This document shows positions 1,043-24,792 of a stretch of DNA of 24,792 nucleotides, one piece after another. A program made the translations under genes and the position numbers. This stretch comes from a virus. Within the stretch, counting starts at the first letter, position 1; each line of letters begins with the position of its first letter. The notes beneath the pieces were generated by a model. The model worked only from the letters and a program-made list of their open reading frames with translations, did no database searches and was not told the origin of the DNA. The stretch spans positions 1 to 24,792 of IMG/VR virus record IMGVR_UViG_3300018481_001304; one strand, 5' to 3'.

Positions 1043-1276
1043 ATGAAAAATCAAAACGAAATGTACCAAAACAAGAAAAAGCCTGAAATCAATATTCCGG
1101 CCTCAGTTACGGCTGATATTGTTGGCTGTAGCGAAAGCTTAGTAAAGCAAGTACGTACTGGAGACCGGAACGCAACTAAAGGCGCTGGCGCAAAGGTAGC
1201 GGTTGTTGATGATTTATTAACTATAGGCACAACCGCATTAATTCAACACATTAAAAAGGTTGTAAAATTAGGGTAA
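1043..1276 (+). CDS. Small early protein, putative Ner/Cro-like DNA-binding protein
   Basis: A 77-aa protein, first of the early operon and divergent from the repressor. ATG 1043 (MKNQNEMYQ) is preferred over an upstream in-frame ATG at 1007, which overlaps the putative -7 element. Residues about 20-45 (TADIVGCSESLVKQVRTGDR) have the spacing of a helix-turn-helix: a short helix, a Gly turn, then a helix with Ser/Lys/Arg. The place next to the switch fits a Ner-like regulator that limits early transcription or represses the repressor. The stop overlaps the transposase start (TAATG), so the two are translationally coupled. Function rests on position and the weak HTH reading; I cannot name a family. 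Confidence 0.6.
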   Translation: MKNQNEMYQNKKKPEINIPASVTADIVGCSESLVKQVRTGDRNATKGAGAKVAVVDDLLTIGTTALIQHIKKVVKLG

Positions 1277-3363
1277 TGCAGTATTTAAACACAAATATCC
1301 TTTGTTTAAGCTACTACGAATATATTGTTTATTTCGGCTTAGATGCCTATAAGAATGATAAAAGACGTAATCTGATGACCGTTCATGGCATTGGAGGCAA
1401 TGGCCGTAAAGTGTTTATTGAATTTGAAAGCTTACAGCCTAAGCGTAAAGAAGTCATAGTAAAAAAGATTGGTAGCCCCTACGAATACATGGCAAAACAG
1501 CCAATACTTGACTTAATTGATTGGGATTACATAGCTCAATCTTTCTACTCTGATTTTGTACTTCCCAACGGTGACAAATTGCCGAATACCAATATTAACG
1601 CGAAGGGTAAAGAGCAAATTAACTATGTTGAGCGCTATACTAAAGCCGCCAGCTGGTTAAATATGATTGACCGTTTAACCTCTGATAAAAGGGCTTTAAA
1701 ACAACTTTTAAATCTATCGGTAATGGACTTTTGGGATACCGTTAGCGAATTGATTTTAAATGAGGGTGTTAAACTTCCAAGTGCGCCAAAAAGACTTAAA
1801 GAAAAAGTTAAAGAATATAAAGCTATTGCAGATACGGAAGACCGTTATGCATCATTAGTGGACTTAAGCAAGTTTGGCAATAGTCATTCAACTAAAATTA
1901 AAGATGAAGAAAGCGAAGCGTTACTATTGAAAATGCTTAGTGATCCACGTAAGCAAGATAATACTGTTATTGCTTCTGCCTATAATCTTTGGGCTAAGAA
2001 AGCAGAGAAACCAACTATAAGTGTTGGGGCTGTTGGCTATTTCGCCCGTAATAATGAACATATTATTGCGCCTTTAAGGGATGGTTTAAAGAAAGCTGCT
2101 AATGTTTATACCAAGGATATACAGCGTAAACGTGCTACTGCACCACTGTTATTTATCAATGCCGATGATAACTGTTTAGATTTATTCTTTGAGGTTGAAA
2201 AGCTAAAGGCTGACGGTAAAGTGCAAAAAAGCAAGCATTACCGCCCTATGTTATACGTAATTATTGATACTTACAATGATTATATCTTAGGCTATGCCGT
2301 TGGTGATACTGTTACACACGAACTTGTTTATTCAGCATTCAGAAATGCTATTAACCATATCGCTGAACTTACTGGTGGTTATTATCTTCCACACCAATTA
2401 CAAACTGATAGATGGGGATTAGATGTAAAATATAAAAACGAATTAGGCCAGTTTTACAAAAAAGTCGCCCGTTTTACGCCTCAATCTCATGGTGTACCGC
2501 AAGGTAAATACATCGAAAGATCATTTGGTGTGGAATGGCACCAGGTGTTAAAAGTAATGCCGACTAATAACTATGCAGGCCAAAATATTACTGCAAAAGA
2601 ACGGTTAAGCGCTGAATACATTGTAGAAGCAAGCAAAAACTATCCAAGCATTGACAGAATGCCGGAAGTTGTGGCCAGTTTCATCAATGTAATGCGCATG
2701 AAAGCTAACCCAAAAACAGGGGTTAGCCGCCAATCAGAATGGATAAATGCCTTCCATGCATCGGAAAAAAGCCAGCAAAAAGCCATTGATGTTAGCTTAA
2801 AACTTCAATTATTCGGTAAAAAATACGAACATGATGCTACAATTACCAAAAGCGGCTTAAAGCCAGTTATAGGCGGTGAAAAGATCACTTTAAACATTCC
2901 TCCTGAAGTAATCTGGCAAAACAACGGTAAAAAGGTAGACATCATTTATGACCCTCAAAATCTTAATGAAATGATGGTAACTGATGGTAAAGGTTTAAGC
3001 TTTATCGCTCCAAAATACGACTTCGTACCATCCAATTTCGCGGATTATAAAGAAGGTGACCACGCCAGAATACAGGGATTGTTTGATGAAAAGAGAAGCA
3101 TTAACCGCCTAATGGCTGAAACCATTCAAAGCCGCTTAAAATCCTTGCCAAATATCAATGTAGAAGGCTTAATGCAAGGCGGGGTATTGCTTAAGGACTT
3201 AAAAAACGAAGCGGAACGCGAATACTTAGAAAACCTTTACCAGCCGAAAGAAATCGAAGCGCCAACAGTGGTACTGCCTGAAGCTAAGAAGAAAATTAAA
3301 GCATCGAAGAAAGTTTTAGCTATTGCTGAAGCGGAAACAGAAGATATAAGAAATTTTTATTAA
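1276..3363 (+). CDS. Mu-type DDE transposase (MuA-like), integrase core
   Basis: A 695-aa protein, close to the length of Mu A (663 aa). The N-terminal ~250 residues correspond to the end-binding region. The RNase H-fold core begins near 285: the first catalytic Asp is at about D297 (LLFINADD), followed by strands 'MLYVIIDTYNDYILGYAVGD'; the second Asp is D378 (QTDRWG); the Glu is E414 in KYIERSFG, equivalent to the Mu A motif KPVERAFG. A beta-barrel-like C domain and a basic, charged tail follow. Known role of the family: binds phage ends, assembles the transpososome and joins phage DNA to target DNA, both for integration and for replicative transposition. The next gene is its MuB-like partner. 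The frame is intact. Confidence 0.9.
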   Translation: MQYLNTNILCLSYYEYIVYFGLDAYKNDKRRNLMTVHGIGGNGRKVFIEFESLQPKRKEVIVKKIGSPYEYMAKQPILDLIDWDYIAQSFYSDFVLPNGDKLPNTNINAKGKEQINYVERYTKAASWLNMIDRLTSDKRALKQLLNLSVMDFWDTVSELILNEGVKLPSAPKRLKEKVKEYKAIADTEDRYASLVDLSKFGNSHSTKIKDEESEALLLKMLSDPRKQDNTVIASAYNLWAKKAEKPTISVGAVGYFARNNEHIIAPLRDGLKKAANVYTKDIQRKRATAPLLFINADDNCLDLFFEVEKLKADGKVQKSKHYRPMLYVIIDTYNDYILGYAVGDTVTHELVYSAFRNAINHIAELTGGYYLPHQLQTDRWGLDVKYKNELGQFYKKVARFTPQSHGVPQGKYIERSFGVEWHQVLKVMPTNNYAGQNITAKERLSAEYIVEASKNYPSIDRMPEVVASFINVMRMKANPKTGVSRQSEWINAFHASEKSQQKAIDVSLKLQLFGKKYEHDATITKSGLKPVIGGEKITLNIPPEVIWQNNGKKVDIIYDPQNLNEMMVTDGKGLSFIAPKYDFVPSNFADYKEGDHARIQGLFDEKRSINRLMAETIQSRLKSLPNINVEGLMQGGVLLKDLKNEAEREYLENLYQPKEIEAPTVVLPEAKKKIKASKKVLAIAEAETEDIRNFY

Positions 3364-7941: not shown

Positions 7942-8346
7942 ATGGAAAAGATAACGACACCCCAATTAATCAAGATTAAAATATTAATGAATCAACAGGG
8001 TTTAATTGAGTTTAGCCCTGAATTAGCCAAATCATTTAGCGATGGCCGTACTACAAGTGTTAGAGAGATGTACGGCCATGAAGCGTGGCTGCTGATTAAG
8101 CATTTAAGTGATGAAGGCAAAGAGCCAACGGCAAAAGAAAGGATGCAGCGTAAGATATTGAGCATGGCACACGAACAAGGCTGGAAGTTGCCTGGTAGTA
8201 AAATAAATATGGCTAAGGTGAATGCCTGGTGCATGAAGTATGGTGTACCAGTGCATAAGCCGTTTAATGACTACAATGAAATTGAACTACCTGCATTGGT
8301 TACTCAATTTGAAAAAATGTATGCAAAGCATTTGAGCGCAATTTAA
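7942..8346 (+). CDS. GemA/Gp16-like early phage protein
   Basis: A 134-aa protein. The N-terminal part 'TPQLIKIKILMNQQGLIEF..ELAKSFSDGRTTSVREM' and the following 'EAWLLIKHLSD' match the plan of the GemA/Gp16 (DUF1018) family of Mu-like phages. In that family a short helix pair is followed by 'T..S..DLT..E...LI..L'. The second half (MQRKILSMAHEQGWKLP...INMAKVNAWCMKYG) also fits the family's C-terminal helical region. In Mu, GemA influences host gene expression and DNA topology. It ends the early operon, 93 bases after the previous gene. Moderate confidence. Confidence 0.55.
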   Translation: MEKITTPQLIKIKILMNQQGLIEFSPELAKSFSDGRTTSVREMYGHEAWLLIKHLSDEGKEPTAKERMQRKILSMAHEQGWKLPGSKINMAKVNAWCMKYGVPVHKPFNDYNEIELPALVTQFEKMYAKHLSAI

Positions 8347-8358
8347 TATCTTCACGGA

Positions 8359-8863
8359 ATGAAAAAGCTTACTTTATTTTTTGATTTCAATTCCTTTTAT
8401 AAGTTTCTCGCAAACTTTTAAGTCAGATGATAGTGTTAAAAGTGCTTACACAGATCAGCCAGCACATACTTTAGATACAGTTGTTGTTTCGAGTTTGACA
8501 AAACAGCAGTCATATAGTAATACGCTCAATTACCTAACTACGTCTTTTGAAGATTCCCGTTCGGTGATCGAAATGAAAGATGCTGATTTAGGCGAAGTCT
8601 CTTTTAATGGCGTAATTGAATCTGACATTACTAATTTGTATTTCAAATGTAGGGTGTATAATAAGGATAACAAGTTTAAGGTAGTTCTTTCAGCTTTGGG
8701 GTATGATAAGCCTATTCCGGGTTTAAGTCTTTCAAAAAGTCAGTTGAGAGTTGCTAATAAGAATTTCGATCCTGAACAGAATAAAGCAGCAAGGCAAATG
8801 GCAGTATCATTAATAAAAGATATAGCCTACCGGATCAACAAAAAGCCCGAAAATGATTTTTAA
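8359..8863 (+). pseudogene. Exported protein gene with a frameshift in the signal peptide
   Basis: From ATG 8359 the frame reads MKKLTLFFDFNSFYKFLANF and stops. The long frame (to 8863) has only a TTG at 8381 as a start. If one T is removed from the T6 run at 8377-8382, the two join as MKKLTLFLISIPFISFSQTF, a typical signal peptide with a basic start, hydrophobic core and cleavage before Gln. The mature part (~150 aa) is soluble, with no motif that I recognise; it contains 'LGEVSFNGVIESDITNLYFKCRVYN', suggesting a beta-sandwich. It may be a lysogen-expressed cargo gene. Causes could be a true mutation, phase variation by slippage, or a sequencing error. A terminator follows directly. Confidence 0.55.
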
Positions 8864-8955: not shown

Positions 8956-9264
8956 ATGATACGCGGCTCACAAACACTGACCTCAATTTTTCCGCCTGCA
9001 CCCGAAGCCAAAAACAAGGGTAAAAGAAACGTATATGCATTAGATCGGGATACATGTATGAGTTACCGTTTTTACTATTATTACCATCTGGAGCGTAAAA
9101 GATTTGATGATGCGATCTTAGATATGGAAAGGGAATTTTTTATAAGTGGCCGTACGATTGCTGATAGATTGACCGAAAATAATGAACTGCTAAAAGATAT
9201 AGCCCTAAACGCACCGAGCCGTAAGCAATTAAAGCAACGCTACCCACACTTTAACTGGAATTAG
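8956..9264 (+). CDS. 102-aa HTH-like protein, candidate late activator
   Basis: Starts MIRGSQTLTS. The central region 'FDDAILDMEREFFISGRTIADRLTEN' (about 50-76) reads as helix, short turn (FIS) and a recognition-like helix (RTIADRL), the pattern of a helix-turn-helix. The N-terminus is basic (KNKGKRN), with a tyrosine-rich patch YRFYYYYHLERKRF before the HTH. It has its own promoter, is isolated between two terminators, and is the last rightward gene before the late region, the position of Mu gene C, whose product activates late promoters. The activator role is inference; a terminase-like or transposase-like HTH is also possible. Confidence 0.55.
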   Translation: MIRGSQTLTSIFPPAPEAKNKGKRNVYALDRDTCMSYRFYYYYHLERKRFDDAILDMEREFFISGRTIADRLTENNELLKDIALNAPSRKQLKQRYPHFNWN

Positions 9265-9272
9265 ATAAAAAC

Positions 9273-9299
9273 AAAAGCCCCGAACATTCGGGGCTTTTT
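9273..9299. terminator. Strong bidirectional terminator
   Basis: AAAAGCCCCGAA at 9273-9284 is complementary to TTCGGGGCTTTT at 9287-9298, with A runs before and T runs after. It separates the rightward 8956 gene from the convergent leftward gene ending at 9308 and can stop transcription both ways. Confidence 0.85.
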
Positions 9300-9307
9300 A
9301 ATTTTAA

Positions 9308-9736
9308 TTAATCAATCTGTTTGGTAAACCCTGTTTTAAACACAAACACCATTACATCTAAATCAGCACGTTGTTCTTCAATGCTGCTAATGCATTCCCA
9401 ACGGTTCATTTCGCTATCTCCAAAGCCTTGAAATAACGTCTCTACTTCTTCAATGGTGTCATAGTATTGCAGCGCTAAATTAAGGTGCTGTGTATCGCTT
9501 AAACTGCTGCTATCAGCAAAGCGTTCTTGTGCTATACGAATGGTAATATTGCATTCGCATAGCTGTAAAGTTTCTGTAAGGTTTTTGCGCTTTGGTAGTG
9601 ATATAGAAATCAATGCGCATGGAAACTGGACGGCGGGGCTTTCGCCGGTGTCTATTTGCGCCCTGTCTTTATCTACAAATTTTATTGATGGCATTTCCTT
9701 GAAACGCTCCAATGTTTTTAAATATATCTTTTTCAT
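9308..9736 (-). CDS. Tail terminator / tail completion-like protein
   Basis: A 142-aa protein with an intact frame at the end of the leftward block. The layout 'LKTLERFKEM..IKFVDKDRAQ', a central 'PCALISISLP', 'QLCECNITIRIAQER', a helix (LNLALQYYDTIEEVETLFQGF) and a C-terminal beta strand 'ADLDVMVFVFKTGF' fits the alpha/beta fold of tail terminator and minor tail proteins such as gpU. These cap the tail tube and fix its length. It is intact although the genes before it in the same block are broken, which matters for the idea that tails are still made. The family call comes from the layout, not from a clear motif. Confidence 0.5.
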   Translation of the reverse strand: MKKIYLKTLERFKEMPSIKFVDKDRAQIDTGESPAVQFPCALISISLPKRKNLTETLQLCECNITIRIAQERFADSSSLSDTQHLNLALQYYDTIEEVETLFQGFGDSEMNRWECISSIEEQRADLDVMVFVFKTGFTKQID

Positions 9737-9831
9737 TTAACTTGTTTTTAAGTGATTTTATCCCTTGTTTCTATTAATGCTAACATCCTTTTCCAAAAGG
9801 TAGGGCTAATGCTTATTTCTTCCTTGTTGTT

Positions 9832-10601
9832 TTATGGGGTTTTGGCTTTCTTTCCTTTTGAAGGTGTAGGGGTATCGGCTTTTTCTTCTTCCTCTTTATC
9901 TTCAAAAAGCGCGTTTGCGCTATTCCAAATGGCTTTTTTTAACTGTTTGTAATTTTTTTGGCGTGGCATCCCGTATTTCTCATAAAAGAAATCATCATCA
10001 AACGGAATTTTCAATTCTTTTGCCATTTTGAAATGCAAATCAAATTCATCCTTTAAGCTTAATCCGGTTCTGCTTTTTAAGATGAACGTACCGCCTTTGG
10101 TGTCAAAGTCCGCGGCCTTTAAAACAGTTATAAAGCGGCTGTTTAAATTTCTTCTTACAAAATTTAATCTGTTTCATGTTTTCTGTGATCAGAGTTCTGG
10201 TGTATTTGCGCTTGTGCATAGCCACTGCTTTTGCTGCTGCCTAATAAAGCCTTACTGATGTAACCATCCATTTTGCTGGTAAAAAACTATCCTGTAGCTG
10301 GCCGCTTGCATTACCCGTATTTTGATGGATTTGTAATTTTGTTCCATCATGGCGAATGATCACACCGGCCCCGCCCATTTCCTGAAATGTCTTAGCCAGT
10401 TTTAGGCGCTGGTTTTCATCAAAACCATCCCAGGTGGCATGAATGATACCAAAGCCGAAAATTTCAATAAATTCAGTCCAATCACTGGTAGTGCCTCGTT
10501 TTAGAATAGCGTAGATGCCTTCACGAATGTTTATGCCGTCAGTACTCATCGCCAGCGGCGGACTTAACGTTTCTTTTGTTCTTATTTTTTTTGTTGCTCA
10601 T
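9832..10601 (-). pseudogene. Broken Mu-like portal gene (DUF935, Mu gp29-like)
   Basis: The start MSNKKNKNKR at 10601 stops after 20 codons. A second frame (from 10549) holds 'EGIYAILKRGTTSDWTEFIE' and 'FQEMGGAGVIIRHDGTKLQI', the middle of DUF935 portals (W..F.E.fG ... G..i.p.g). A third frame has ISKALLGSSKSSGYAQAQIH, matching the portal motif ISKA.LG. The last frame (10038 onward) ends with 'MAKELKIPFDDDFFYEKYGM', the portal C-terminal signature. So one gene lies across at least three frames, with most of its N-terminal half missing. One shift is at an A6/T6 run (10281-10286). A 27-codon open remnant follows the stop (9748-9831), perhaps from a lost head morphogenesis gene. It cannot give a working portal. 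Confidence 0.75.
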
Positions 10602-10644
10602 TTGGTTAAGTGTTTAAAGTAATTACCTCTTTTGGTTCTGCTGG

Positions 10645-11025
10645 TTACACTGAATACAACTCCAGTAAATCTTCGTCGGCTAACGGCCATGCTTTCGGAA
10701 CGGTTCTACCGCTTTGTATTTTGCCTAATTCAACTAGAGCAGCCTTATAGTGTTTTTCGGCTATCTCCATATCAACGTTGACATTACAGATATTGATAAA
10801 ATGCCATTTGGACATATCTTTAATGTACGCGCGAAGGTTGGCATACTTAATTTTATCCTCACTAACGAAAATTATATCTGTGTTGAAGCGGCTTAGGTAG
10901 CCTGAAGCTTCAGCCATTGCGGTGGCAATGGCATCGTTTAATATTTCATCATCGTTGTCGCTGATCGCATCTATACTACCTTCGTACATGTGCGTTAAAA
11001 AATCTTGTTTGGTTATAAAATCCAT
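10645..11025 (-). CDS. DUF1320 / Mu gp36-like head-tail connector protein
   Basis: A 126-aa protein, MDFITKQDFLTHM, with an acidic helix 'DNDDEILNDAIATAMAEASGYLSRFNTD' and the C-terminal 'AEKHYKAALVELGKIQSGRTVP', the Y..A...L..I..G pattern of DUF1320 (Mu gp36). This family resembles connector proteins joining head and tail. It is the only intact head-proximal gene here, between the terminase chimera and the broken portal. The frame is open 20+ codons upstream (KPLTQAVKAAEEFNN precedes the Met), probably the tail end of a deleted gene fused in frame; translation could start further up. Confidence 0.62.
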   Translation of the reverse strand: MDFITKQDFLTHMYEGSIDAISDNDDEILNDAIATAMAEASGYLSRFNTDIIFVSEDKIKYANLRAYIKDMSKWHFINICNVNVDMEIAEKHYKAALVELGKIQSGRTVPKAWPLADEDLLELYSV

Positions 11026-11075
11026 GTTGTTAAATTCTTCTGCTGCCTTTACGGCTTGCGTTAATGGTTTGAATA

Positions 11076-11501
11076 TTACTGGTAAGGGTAAGAAATTGAT
11101 CGTGTTGGAATTAAAGCCTTTTCAAACCAGTCATGTTTTTGTGTGATGGTGTCAGGTTTTCGGCAATCTTCATCCGTGTCAAAATCATCAACAATAATCC
11201 CGTCAGGTCTTACCTCGTCATTACGGCTACCTCTGGGGCTTTGCCCCGCGCCGATGACTCTAAAGGCTACACCTTTAAGGATGATAAATTCGCCTTCACT
11301 CCAGCTGCCATAACTTTTCTGTATTTCGTAATCAGCAATTAAACGGGTATTGTTTTCTAAAATTGATTTGATCGTGTTGCCGCTAGTTCCAACGCGTTCA
11401 GCCAGGGCTTTTGGGTTGATAATGTTTTCATGCAGGTACAGGACTTTGGCATGCTCCTTAAGCCGTTCCGGTTCCTCTTTTGTAAGTCGTTTTTTTGCCA
11501 T
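11076..11501 (-). pseudogene. Chimera of terminase small and large subunit remnants
   Basis: A 141-aa frame. Residues 1-48 (MAKKRLTKEE ... ALAERVGTSGNTIKSI) are the HTH start of a terminase small subunit. From about 49 it becomes the interior of a large subunit: RLIADYEIQKSYGSWSEGEF, GVAFRVIGAGQSPRGSRNDE, then Walker B IIVDDFD (102-108) and the conserved 'PDTI..K.DWFEKAL.PTRSIS'. The ATP-binding Walker A region is absent. The frame stops at 11076; adding one base there would continue as PLPVIF, as expected in the large subunit, so a 1-base loss also occurred. The nuclease domain is gone. It cannot package DNA. The start codon lies only ~7 bases from the -7 promoter element. Confidence 0.75.
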
Positions 11502-11508
11502 AACACTT

Positions 11509-11641
11509 CAAAAATGCATGCTATATATAGACTAAAAAAACTGGGTTGCGCTATCACGGCACCTATTGCCGGAATAACGTAAACATGCTGCTGTGATACT
11601 GCAAACCGATTTTTTTGGCTGTTTTTGAAGGAGTATGTTTG
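11509..11641. promoter_or_regulatory. Mirror-image divergent late promoters
   Basis: Two copies of one element point outward. Rightward: GCTGTGATACTGCAAAC at 11590-11606, T7 at 11610-11616, then TATGTTTG at 11634-11641. Leftward (read on the minus strand): GCCGTGATAGCGCAACC at 11560-11544, T7 at 11540-11534, then CATTTTTG at 11516-11509. In both, 3 bases separate the motif from T7 and 17 bases separate T7 from the -7-like box. The last box fits TAnnTTTG exactly on the right and with one change on the left. This equal geometry implies shared control of the head (leftward) and protease-lysis-tail (rightward) operons, likely by a DNA-binding activator. Confidence 0.65.
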
Positions 11642-11666
11642 TGCCAACAAAAGGAAAAAGCGGCAA

Positions 11667-11867
11667 ATGAAAAGAGCAAGCAAGCGTATTATTCTTACCA
11701 GTGAAAATGTTAACCGCTACGGCTTTCGTGTATTAACTGATGGGATTGATTTAACGCAATACGGTAAAAATCCATTAATGCTTTGGATGCACATCCCAGC
11801 ATTTTCCAATGACGCGGAAACTACAATTTTAGCTTTAAGTAAAAAATCCAATGAAGTTTTTAAATAA
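11667..11867 (+). pseudogene. Truncated prohead protease (Mu gpI-like) remnant
   Basis: From ATG 11667 the frame reads MKRASKRIILTSENVNRYGF and continues 'RVLTDGIDLTQYGKNPLMLWMH', the conserved start of prohead proteases in Bacteroidetes Mu-like phages. After about 42 residues homology ends and an unrelated 24-residue tail (IPAFSNDAETTILALSKKSN...) follows before the stop. The catalytic His/Ser part is gone, and so is any major capsid gene expected downstream. The tail probably comes from the end of a gene that lay before the holin, so one deletion removed protease body, capsid and more. An in-frame ATG at 11625 lies in the promoter and was not used. Confidence 0.65.
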
Positions 11868-12363
11868 GATGCTTGCTACTTTCGATTATCATAGCTGGGC
11901 AGAATTTGGACAAAGTTTATTGCCATCGTCAAAATACGGGTGGACGGTGATAAGTGCTGGTTTTAGCCTGTCAATATTCCCATTCGTAGATAGGGTTTTC
12001 GGGTTAGATGCTTATGCGTTCGCAGTCTTAATCTTAGTTTTTATTGCTGAGTTGACTAGCGGCCTTATTGCTGCCAGTATTTGTAAGGAAGCAATTAGCA
12101 GCATGAAGCTAAGTCGATTTTCATTTAAGGTATTTTATTACCTGGTGCTAATCTCATTGCCTTACGTGATGGCTGAAAGCTTCAAATTGCACGGAAAAGC
12201 GGCTGCTGCTTTTATGTTCGATTGGCTGCATTTATTCTTACTCGCCCAAATCATTCTCGAAAACGTAGTAAGTATCCTTGAAAACCTAGCCGTGATCAGT
12301 GGTAAGGATAAAACGCACTGGATCGCAAAAATTCAACAAAAATTCAACAATCTAATATCATGA
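11851..12363 (+). CDS. Holin, phage lysis membrane protein
   Basis: A 170-aa membrane protein with about four hydrophobic segments: 31-48, 54-78 (FAVLILVFIAELTSGLIAAS), 92-110 (FKVFYYLVLISLPYVMAESF) and 117-145. The 'ELTSGLIAAS' followed by a cationic stretch (KEAISSMKLSRFSFK) is typical of the phage_holin_4-type family common in Bacteroidetes and Firmicutes phages. It overlaps the protease remnant by 17 bases and the endolysin start by 4 (ATGA). Holins form membrane lesions that time lysis. A second Met at 11869 could give a form six residues shorter. Confidence 0.75.
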   Translation: MKFLNKMLATFDYHSWAEFGQSLLPSSKYGWTVISAGFSLSIFPFVDRVFGLDAYAFAVLILVFIAELTSGLIAASICKEAISSMKLSRFSFKVFYYLVLISLPYVMAESFKLHGKAAAAFMFDWLHLFLLAQIILENVVSILENLAVISGKDKTHWIAKIQQKFNNLIS

Positions 12364-12878
12364 ACAGAGCAGAAAAAATAATCACAATAGCTAAAAGCTA
12401 CGTTGGCATAAAAGAAAAAACAGGCAACAAAGGTTTTTGGAATGCGGCGTTTGAAAAGTTAATGATTGCGGTTGGCTGGTATGTTGGTGCTGCATGGTGT
12501 GCATTCTTCACTAAAAACGCTTACCTGCAAGCATATTCCGATAACAAAGCTTTCGTTGCTGTGATTAAAAATTGCTTCACTGGCGGTGCTGTTGACACCT
12601 TTAACCGCGTGAAAGCAAATGGCACGTTTGCAACAGGAACAATACCCAAAAACGGCGCTATCGTTGTATTTAGGATGGGTGATACTTCGCGTGGTCATCA
12701 TGGCATTATAGTTAATTCAGCTTATGCCACCAATACCATGCAAACGGTAGAAGGTAATACCAATTCTGCTGGCAGTCGTGAAGGCGATACGGTGGCGATT
12801 AAATTAAGGACAATTACCCGCGATTTTAAGGCCGATGGTTTAAATGTTGTTGGATATATCTATCCATTTGAAGTGTAA
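12360..12878 (+). CDS. Endolysin, CHAP/NlpC-P60-type cysteine peptidoglycan hydrolase
   Basis: A 172-aa protein with no signal peptide. The catalytic Cys is C47 in AAWCAFF; the catalytic His is H113 in RGHHGIIV; the polar residue and fold motif VEGNTN (130-135) follows. The order C...H...(E/N) fits CHAP/NlpC-P60 amidases and endopeptidases that cut peptide bonds or amides in murein. N-terminal 'IAKSYVGIKEKTG.N' is common in phage CHAP enzymes. It sits between holin and spanin, a complete lysis cassette, and overlaps the holin stop. Lack of a signal suggests release through the holin. Confidence 0.85.
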   Translation: MNRAEKIITIAKSYVGIKEKTGNKGFWNAAFEKLMIAVGWYVGAAWCAFFTKNAYLQAYSDNKAFVAVIKNCFTGGAVDTFNRVKANGTFATGTIPKNGAIVVFRMGDTSRGHHGIIVNSAYATNTMQTVEGNTNSAGSREGDTVAIKLRTITRDFKADGLNVVGYIYPFEV

Positions 12879-22638: not shown

Positions 22639-24792
22639 ATGTCTCAATTCCAATTAAACATAAAACGCTCTGGCGTAATAATAGCTACTGTTGAGATCGA
22701 TGAAAACACTGTTTTCAATCAGGAATGGATGGGGGTTGAAAAGATTACTTCAACCTTCACTTTATCTAATCCTATTGATATTCGGGTTAACGATTATATT
22801 GAGTTTTTGGGTGAAAAATACACCATTAAAAACGGCATTCCATGTGATCAGTCTAATGGCTCAACATTCAAGTATAATGTTGAGTTTTTTAGCCCAACAT
22901 ATTACTTGTATAACGTGCCGATGATGCATTTAGATCGTGTTAAGTTTTCGTATGTGGGTACGCCGTTGGAAGTACTTTCTTTAATTATAGAAAATTTAAA
23001 CAATGAAGAAGCTGGCTGGAGTATCGGGGATTGTTCTTTGATTTCCGAGCCAGAAACCTTCAATTTTGATCAGCAAAGCTGTAGAACTGCATTAACCACT
23101 TTGGCCGAAACATTTAAACTGGAATATAAAGTTAAAGGCAAAAAGATTTATTTGCTTGAAAAATTAGGCGAAACGCAAAATATCGTTTTGAAGTATGGCC
23201 GTGGTTATGGCCTTATCAATGCGGCACGGCAGGCGGTTGATCGGGAATATGCAACTGTTTGGCGTTTTTATGGCGGATCAACAAATTTGCCGGAAGGTTA
23301 TCGAAATAGCATGGATAGGATTGCTTTAGATTCTCCCTATTTATTAAACGATGATATTTATGGCCGAAAACATGGAAGTGTGATTTTTGAAGATGTTTTT
23401 CCGCGCCGTACAGGTTCGGTAACAGCTATTGACGGGTTAAATGCAGTTATTGATAATACTTTAGATTTTGATCTAAATATTCAGTCAATAAGTGACGGCG
23501 GCGCTAAAATCGTTTTTAAATCAGGTGAATTAAGCGGAGGTGAATTTGTAATTAAATCTTATAACCCAACTACCAAAAAGATTACGTTTGGAGATAGGAA
23601 GGATGAAACAACGGGTTACGTTACCCCTAATGCAAGCTTTACCGCTGCTGTAGGCGATAAATATACTTTGATGGGTATAATCATGCCGCAAACGTATGTT
23701 GATGCTGCTGAAGCAGAGGTATTGGCGTTGGGAACTGAGCATGCAAAAGCAAATAGTTTCCCGCCAGTGGCATTCCCTTTAAATATCGATGAAAAATTTA
23801 TTCGCGATATGCAACTTATTTATAAAATAGTTGCTGGCGATTATGTTTACGTTATTTCTGAAGCTTTGGGTATTAACACTAAAATAAGAATGCAGTCAAT
23901 TTCTTATCCTTTAGTTAATCCAGCCAATATCGCTGGTGTAGTGTCTGATGTTGCGCAATACTCCACAGTTGAAAAACTAAAAAAAGATGTTATTCAAAAC
24001 AAAAAAGAAACGGCAAAAAGCGTAGCTGTTGCGCTTTATGCCCGTCAATTGGCTGATGAAATAAGTAACGCCGCTATTTTAAATCAATTTCAGCGCACTT
24101 ATGTTGGCGATCAGGCTATTTTAACAGGGGCATTCGTTGCTGGCAATCCTGAAGCTGGTGCGGTTGCGGGCATCAATGGCGCGGAAAACGATCCTGAAAC
24201 TATTCGTTTTTGGGCTGGCTCATCATTCGCGGATAAGGAAAATGCCCCTTTTAGAGTTTCGCAACGTGGAGATGTTGTAATGCGTAATGCTACACTTCAA
24301 TCATCTGCCGCTGGAAAGCGTATCGAAATAAATAGCAAAGAAAATAATTTAAGATTTTATGATGAAGCTGGCAATACGCTTATTGATTTTGATGATAATA
24401 GTGCCTTAGAGGGTATTTCGATTACGCCTAATGATCCGCCGTCACCGCCTACGCTTCATTTTACTTATGGCCCTGGTATAAGGGTTGGTAACTTTGATAA
24501 TAACTTAGGCGGTTCGTCAATTAGTCGAAAAGGCTTCTTTTCAAACGGAGTAATTGAGTGCAGGGATATCGCAACCGAACAAGTTGTTTTTAAAGTTGAG
24601 AATGGCAATATTATGCTTGCTGGCAACATCGTTATGGCTGGTGCTATCCAGATATCAGATACTACTTCGGGTGGTATAACGATGGGTGAAGAACCTGGAT
24701 TAAGCACAGTTTATGATGTTCGTGTTGGCGGGGATTCTTTTGTGAGATTAAAGTGGGTTAAAGGCATTTTGGTCGGTATTACTCCTCGATAG
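22639..24792 (+). CDS. Tail hub / tail-associated protein (Tal-like)
   Basis: A 717-aa protein whose stop is the last codon of the window. N-terminal ~1-250: strands 'VIIATVEIDENTVFNQEWMG', 'DYIEFLGEKYTIKNGIP', 'VEFFSPTYYLYNVPMMHLDR' and 'TALTTLAETFKLEYKVKGK', the pattern of gp27/gpD-like hub domains of Tal proteins. The middle has a beta-rich insertion (NTLDFDLNIQSISDG...) and a helix region near 455-480 (KKDVIQNKKETAKSVAVALY). The C-terminal part repeats 'DVVMRNATLQSSAAGKRIEI' type beta units, common in phage host-specificity proteins. It closes the tail tip with Dit and fibre. No peptidase motif is obvious. Called from layout and position. Confidence 0.68.
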   Translation: MSQFQLNIKRSGVIIATVEIDENTVFNQEWMGVEKITSTFTLSNPIDIRVNDYIEFLGEKYTIKNGIPCDQSNGSTFKYNVEFFSPTYYLYNVPMMHLDRVKFSYVGTPLEVLSLIIENLNNEEAGWSIGDCSLISEPETFNFDQQSCRTALTTLAETFKLEYKVKGKKIYLLEKLGETQNIVLKYGRGYGLINAARQAVDREYATVWRFYGGSTNLPEGYRNSMDRIALDSPYLLNDDIYGRKHGSVIFEDVFPRRTGSVTAIDGLNAVIDNTLDFDLNIQSISDGGAKIVFKSGELSGGEFVIKSYNPTTKKITFGDRKDETTGYVTPNASFTAAVGDKYTLMGIIMPQTYVDAAEAEVLALGTEHAKANSFPPVAFPLNIDEKFIRDMQLIYKIVAGDYVYVISEALGINTKIRMQSISYPLVNPANIAGVVSDVAQYSTVEKLKKDVIQNKKETAKSVAVALYARQLADEISNAAILNQFQRTYVGDQAILTGAFVAGNPEAGAVAGINGAENDPETIRFWAGSSFADKENAPFRVSQRGDVVMRNATLQSSAAGKRIEINSKENNLRFYDEAGNTLIDFDDNSALEGISITPNDPPSPPTLHFTYGPGIRVGNFDNNLGGSSISRKGFFSNGVIECRDIATEQVVFKVENGNIMLAGNIVMAGAIQISDTTSGGITMGEEPGLSTVYDVRVGGDSFVRLKWVKGILVGITPR

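Follow-up and report, generated by a model that had tools for sequence, protein, structure and literature searches.

The window (the whole stretch of DNA analysed, 24,792 nt of IMG/VR virus record IMGVR_UViG_3300018481_001304) comes from a Mu-like transposable phage. Besides a CI-like repressor and a MuA-type transposase, whose rve match is weak (E 0.0035) but which can be aligned with its MuA-type counterparts in 19 related records, it has a MuB-type AAA ATPase, DUF3164, a Portal_Mu fragment, a weak Gp36 match, a holin and a CHAP lysin. Two inverted sequence arms lie between its leftward TerS/TerL operon and its rightward protease/capsid/lysis/tail operon. The genes and sites that matter for the following are:

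1-954: CI-like repressor
1276-3363: MuA-type transposase
8956-9264, plus strand: candidate late regulator, 102 aa, a predicted all-helical helix-turn-helix (HTH) protein with its recognition helix at about residues 65-74 (RTIADRLTEN)
11076-11501, minus strand: leftward late gene, TerS 1-44 fused by deletion to TerL 130-224 (tblastn with Pedobacter terrae prophage proteins; phrog_38, terminase large subunit)
11509-11516, minus strand: predicted left -7 box, sequence CATTTTTG, its first base off TAnnTTTG
11534-11540, minus strand: left T7 tract, read as the -33 element; the -7 box follows 24 nt after its first T
11552-11561, minus strand: left outer half-site, TGCCGTGATA
11567-11576, plus strand: inner half-site, TGCCGGAATA, matching an outer site at 8/10 and forming a dyad with the left outer half-site
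11574-11583, minus strand: fourth half-site place of many relatives, degenerate here (1/10)
11589-11598, plus strand: right outer half-site, TGCTGTGATA
11610-11616, plus strand: right T7 tract, read as the -33 element
11634-11641, plus strand: predicted right -7 box, TATGTTTG, a perfect TAnnTTTG
11667-11867, plus strand: prohead protease residues 1-57, the rest deleted; start of the rightward late operon (tblastn with Pedobacter terrae prophage proteins)
11851-12363: holin, after the protease remnant in the rightward operon
12360-12878: CHAP lysin, after the holin

The head genes at 9308-11867 are damaged, with TerS and TerL fused, the portal fragmented and the protease cut at residue 57, and no match to a capsid gene was found in the window. 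The late promoters are intact, and the early, lysis and tail genes have kept their full length. Given the degenerate fourth half-site and the broken head genes, this copy may be decaying. Its nearest named relative is the Pedobacter terrae prophage (L125), and the host of the phage is probably Pedobacter-like. Head genes are likewise broken or missing, with early, lysis and tail genes and the late promoters intact, in L083/L094 and in L087/L088, and L083 has the same protease-to-holin deletion as the window.

A repeat search returned the two arms, 11534-11561 and 11589-11616, as a 28-nt inverted repeat with 79% complementarity (22/28) and 27 nt between. The string GTGATANNGCAANCCNNTTTTTTT is exact on both arms, at 11593-11616 on the plus strand and 11557-11534 on the minus strand, and with its T7 tract it matches exactly twice; dinucleotide-shuffled versions of the window gave an expectation of 0.02, and none of them reached two. 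Both GCCGTGATAGCGCAACCC (11560-11543, minus strand) and GCTGTGATACTGCAAACC (11590-11607, plus strand) fit GCNGTGATANNGCAANCC with 0 mismatches, and the arms are the only sites in the window with 0-1 mismatches to it. Read directly, the gap from T7 to the -7 box is exactly 17 nt on both sides. The mirror-image pairing of motif, T7 tract and box that the sequence-only reading had noticed is thus real, and its proposal of divergent late promoters with Bacteroidetes -7 boxes and a shared control element is supported. When set against the Bacteroidetes housekeeping promoter (-33 TTTG / -7 TAnnTTTG), the right -7 box fits perfectly, the left nearly so, and the spacing agrees, whereas the -33 element is a T-run mostly without the G and the left -7 box begins with CA. 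A sigma-70 promoter scan of the arm region stayed at chance level, the sigma-70 model being not applicable to Bacteroidota. One partial operator match with two mismatches, at 24559-24577 on the plus strand, lies inside the last tail gene and is likely due to chance.

As BLASTN of the arm region, and of one related short record (L087), against phage records found no match, relatives were sought by protein and by pattern instead. With TerL as query, 80 viral loci were found, and 80 in named genomes of Bacteroidota. In 126 related loci an intergenic region separates TerS from the protease, which point away from each other; together with three added regions this made 129 regions from Mu-like phages of Bacteroidota, each scored on both strands for a -7 box placed 24 nt from a T-run. 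When the two promoters were sought jointly at 66-72 bp, where spacing peaks at 67 and 69 bp, a pair was present in 89% of the 129 regions at a score of at least 18, versus 3.9% of shuffles, and in 61% at a score of at least 22, which no shuffle reached. With no spacing constraint beyond 40-140 bp, the distance from T-run to T-run was 67-71 bp in 54/59 non-redundant pairs. T-runs are prominent on both sides of the resulting profiles, where the -33 element mostly lacks the G of TTTG, and nnnnTTTG stands at the fixed 24-nt offset in 66/68 on both arms, the TTTG being partly selected by the scoring. The left -7 box starts with CA rather than TA across the relatives as well, with the profile CAnTTTTG and C at 78% despite a scoring penalty.

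This layout is where the conservation across relatives that had been predicted for the GTGATA motif was found; the word itself is limited to the close kin of the window, and other phages have a different word in the same place. What is conserved is the geometry and the match of the two arms within each phage. Arm words include TGCCGTGATA in the window's kin, TGCTATGATA in L005/L006, TGCAAGCTTA in L016/L030, AGGGGTAAAA in L079 and TGTAAAGC-like words in Flavobacterium phages, and the operator words of the Pedobacter phages L125/L126/L163 are GTGATA, TATGATA and CGTACGC. Left and right arms agree at 9.4/16 positions within a phage versus 5.4/16 across phages (z about 13.6, 0/5000 permutations), an agreement seen at shift 0 only and gone at any other shift.

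Profiles built from each phage's own half-site mark four places, at -58 on the minus strand, -43 on the plus, -36 on the minus and -21 on the plus from the right T-run (-56, -42, -35 and -21 in the 67-bp class). The inner half-sites beat a null of sites from other phages, with 0, 0, 1 and 0 of 3000 permutations reaching the observed values. From these two results we take the common design to be two dyads 21-22 bp, or two helical turns, apart. The outer half-sites are strongest and adjoin the -33 elements, each spanning -21 to -12 from the start of a kept T-run that itself begins 24 nt before the -7 box. The control element that had been described as two copies of about 30 bp is indeed shared between the promoters, and in many relatives it is a single operator of four half-sites spanning both; the window keeps three of the four.

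The candidate regulator at 8956-9264 belongs to a family found in 37 of the 40 related viral records, nearly always in one copy, and in 121 loci; it is always in the same place, where it closes the early region and runs towards the leftward operon. Its AF2 model has a mean pLDDT of 87.9 (about 97 over the helical core) and five helices with an HTH. The regulator had no match in Pfam or NCBIfam, none of 59 family members matched Pfam PF08765 (Mor) at E<=0.1, and a PDB sequence search with the family profile returned nothing significant. When the family was aligned by hhalign to Mu Mor/C, the probability was 0.3/2.3%, the alignment falling on the Mor/C HTH and not being significant. Foldseek/VIA-align of the model gave weak HTH matches only (DeoR domain Z 5.6, GerE 4.5, sigma-4-like 3-3.5), a list from which Mor is absent, which is not evidence against a Mor fold, and Foldseek against BFVD gave nothing under E 0.001. 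Another gene, 7942-8346, was rejected as the regulator, with homologues in few relatives and one weak match as its HTH support.

Hankyphage and Porphyromonas gingivalis phages carry the same family. In Bacteroides phage jmh42_hp the homologue (L227 14199-14468, minus strand) is annotated ‘transposase’, probably a mis-annotation. The nearest relative of the window, L004, has the regulator twice, at 8266-8580 and at 9273-9611 (minus strand), with 99% and 85% identity to that of the window, and the gene beside it is duplicated too. In 17 Flavobacterium-type and other loci, the place of the regulator is taken by a protein of 75-85 aa with a predicted HTH (class B), which never occurs together with the 8956 family; one example is the Flavobacterium phage fF4-like prophage L160 (15061-15300, minus strand). 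The AF2 model of this protein has a helix order similar to that of the 8956 protein. Since hhalign of class A (8956-type) against class B regulators gave a probability of 2.6%, aligned over the HTH, we do not claim homology. The Flavobacterium phages have an operator of another type alongside the class B protein.

Operator similarity tracks the identity of the 8956 regulator, with r 0.50 over 32 phages and 0.29 (p 4e-4) when TerL and protease are controlled for, while the correlations of TerL and protease with the operator vanish once the regulator is controlled for. Over 19-20 phages, r was 0.74-0.77 for the regulator versus 0.50 for MuB, 0.53 for DUF3164, 0.64 for the second AAA protein, 0.67 for P7420 and 0.71 for MuA, and the regulator's correlation survived control for each of these five. 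In these tests, drawn on related phages, the regulator thus follows the operator more closely than seven other phage proteins do. The HTH columns alone track the operator weakly after control for TerL and protease (r 0.11, p 0.05). Within the group nearest to the window, phages whose recognition helix reads GRTI have GTGATA, and those with GTTI/GSTI have ATGATA, a pairing that, with few lineages, is a lead only. The proposal that the product of the 8956 gene reads the arms fared well by this comparative evidence: a phage-encoded, putative DNA-binding protein, it is the best candidate binder of the half-sites.

We consider it likely that the arm region serves a Mu-like Bacteroidota (pro)phage as the switch for its late genes, with the 8956 HTH protein activating both promoters. 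Two divergent promoters of housekeeping type, each with a T-run at -33 and a TAnnTTTG-like box at -7, would drive head and packaging genes leftward and protease, capsid, lysis and tail genes rightward, with predicted transcription starts at both. Because the A/T-only -33 elements mostly lack the G of TTTG, both promoters are probably weak alone; the right one might fire without help, its -7 box being a perfect consensus. The early-encoded 8956 protein would bind the half-sites directly upstream of each -33 element, presumably as dimers on the dyads, and with the dyads about 21-22 bp (two helical turns) apart, one nucleoprotein complex could face both promoters. After early transcription, the protein would bring in or stimulate the host's RNA polymerase at the two operons at once, so that the head and tail operons would start together. 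Silencing of the CI-like repressor of hankyphage raises expression of most phage genes (PMC12135933), which fits such a cascade and is no test of the late-activation step.

The likeness to Mu C-dependent promoters suggested by the sequence-only reading stands in its logic. As with Mu Mor (Pm) and C (Plys, PI, PP, Pmom), the phage is transposable, a small HTH protein from the end of the early/middle region would act with host RNA polymerase, as an activator by analogy, and a dyad lies upstream of a promoter whose -35/-33 element is poor. It does not carry over to the protein, which is not detectably of the Mor/C family, or to the placing of the site. The Mor dyad at Pm has its centre at -43.5 and takes the place of the -35 element (PMC4390567), whereas here a half-site lies upstream of a -33 T-run that is kept, unlike in a Mu-type late promoter with its dyad at about -43. 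Mu late promoters are scattered and unidirectional, whereas the two divergent promoters here are served by a single control region whose length is fixed, and, unlike in Mu, the regulator has no Pfam Mor match and the core promoters are of the Bacteroidetes type.

The element could instead be a repression operator, by which the 8956 protein or another phage protein silences the late genes until a signal arrives, the promoters themselves being strong. Tandem palindromic dyads are common in operators, the perfect TAnnTTTG of the right -7 box would suit a strong promoter, and the CI-like repressor at 1-954 shows that such proteins exist in the window. The half-sites, however, are upstream of the -33 elements and leave the core promoters uncovered, most of these elements lack the consensus G, and the 8956 gene ends the early region and faces the late block, as Mu C does. 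We also found no convincing operator sites in the window or the phages outside the intergenic region, and none near the early/repressor region. We therefore regard repression as unlikely and retain activation of both promoters as the preferred reading.

The sites might also be bound by a different protein of the phage, such as a genuine Mor-like protein that has diverged and is encoded elsewhere among the early genes. ORF14 of fF4 was called mor-like by HHpred (PMC7761591) and, judging by gene order, is probably not the gene beside the head module; in addition, small correlations with the operator persist for MuA, the second AAA protein and P7420 after control for the 8956 family. However, Pfam gave no Mor match in any of 18 whole genomes of hosts carrying such prophages, that of L160 among them, so that the mor-like call was not reproduced. 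Covariation is strongest for the 8956 family (r 0.77 versus 0.50-0.71), and where another HTH protein stands at its place, in the Flavobacterium phages, the operator has changed too. Another phage protein as the binder therefore seems improbable to us. That a host factor binds the sites, or that the repeat is a DNA structure or a packaging or transposition site without a regulatory role, is very improbable, for although the region is A/T-rich and palindromic and pac-like sites can occur close to terminase genes, the words of the Pedobacter phages differ in step with their own regulators, the half-sites hold a fixed register to -33 and -7 on both sides, and in three Pedobacter host genomes the operator was not found outside the prophage promoter.

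The arrangement that the 8956 protein is proposed to control extends beyond the window. Hankyphage p00/jmh42, the P. gingivalis phages, Elizabethkingia phage TCUEAP3 and fF4 (the last from PMC7761591) share its genome plan of rightward early genes, a leftward terminase/portal operon and a rightward protease/capsid/tail operon; the fF4-like prophage has the class B protein instead of the 8956 family. More tentatively, and at slightly less than an even chance in our judgement, this may be a type of switch found throughout the phylum: an HTH activator not recognised before would bind as two dimers, two helical turns apart, to one control region of fixed length and fire both divergent operons as a unit, regulator and operator having co-diversified into many private specificities and the regulator having been replaced in Flavobacterium with the geometry kept. 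In the literature searched we found no description of this intergenic control region or of a late regulator in Bacteroidota Mu-like phages, nor of any protein that activates late transcription in phages of Bacteroidota, the widespread gut hankyphages among them. It is now possible to name, in dozens of phages, a candidate gene family (its members annotated as hypothetical and in one case as transposase) together with its predicted DNA sites and the two promoters, so that late activation can be put to a direct test in laboratory strains. Numerous regulator-operator pairs, each of them matched and all on a single rigid scaffold, form a natural series for the evolution of DNA-binding specificity, and could give orthogonal expression switches for Bacteroidota.

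Two further features of the relatives were noted. In many phages of Sphingobacteriia/Chitinophagia type the TerS start codon lies 4-7 nt past the left TTTG box, compared with 15-24 nt in most others, and to judge from this distance the terminase mRNA of the former may be leaderless. Two short records of 14.7 and 16.1 kb (L087 and L088; L229, L230), in which TerL was not found, have the order MuA, MuB, regulator, one leftward tail-type gene, holin, lysin and tail genes, and in this gene content they resemble a capsid-less, tailocin-like element that has kept its transposase.
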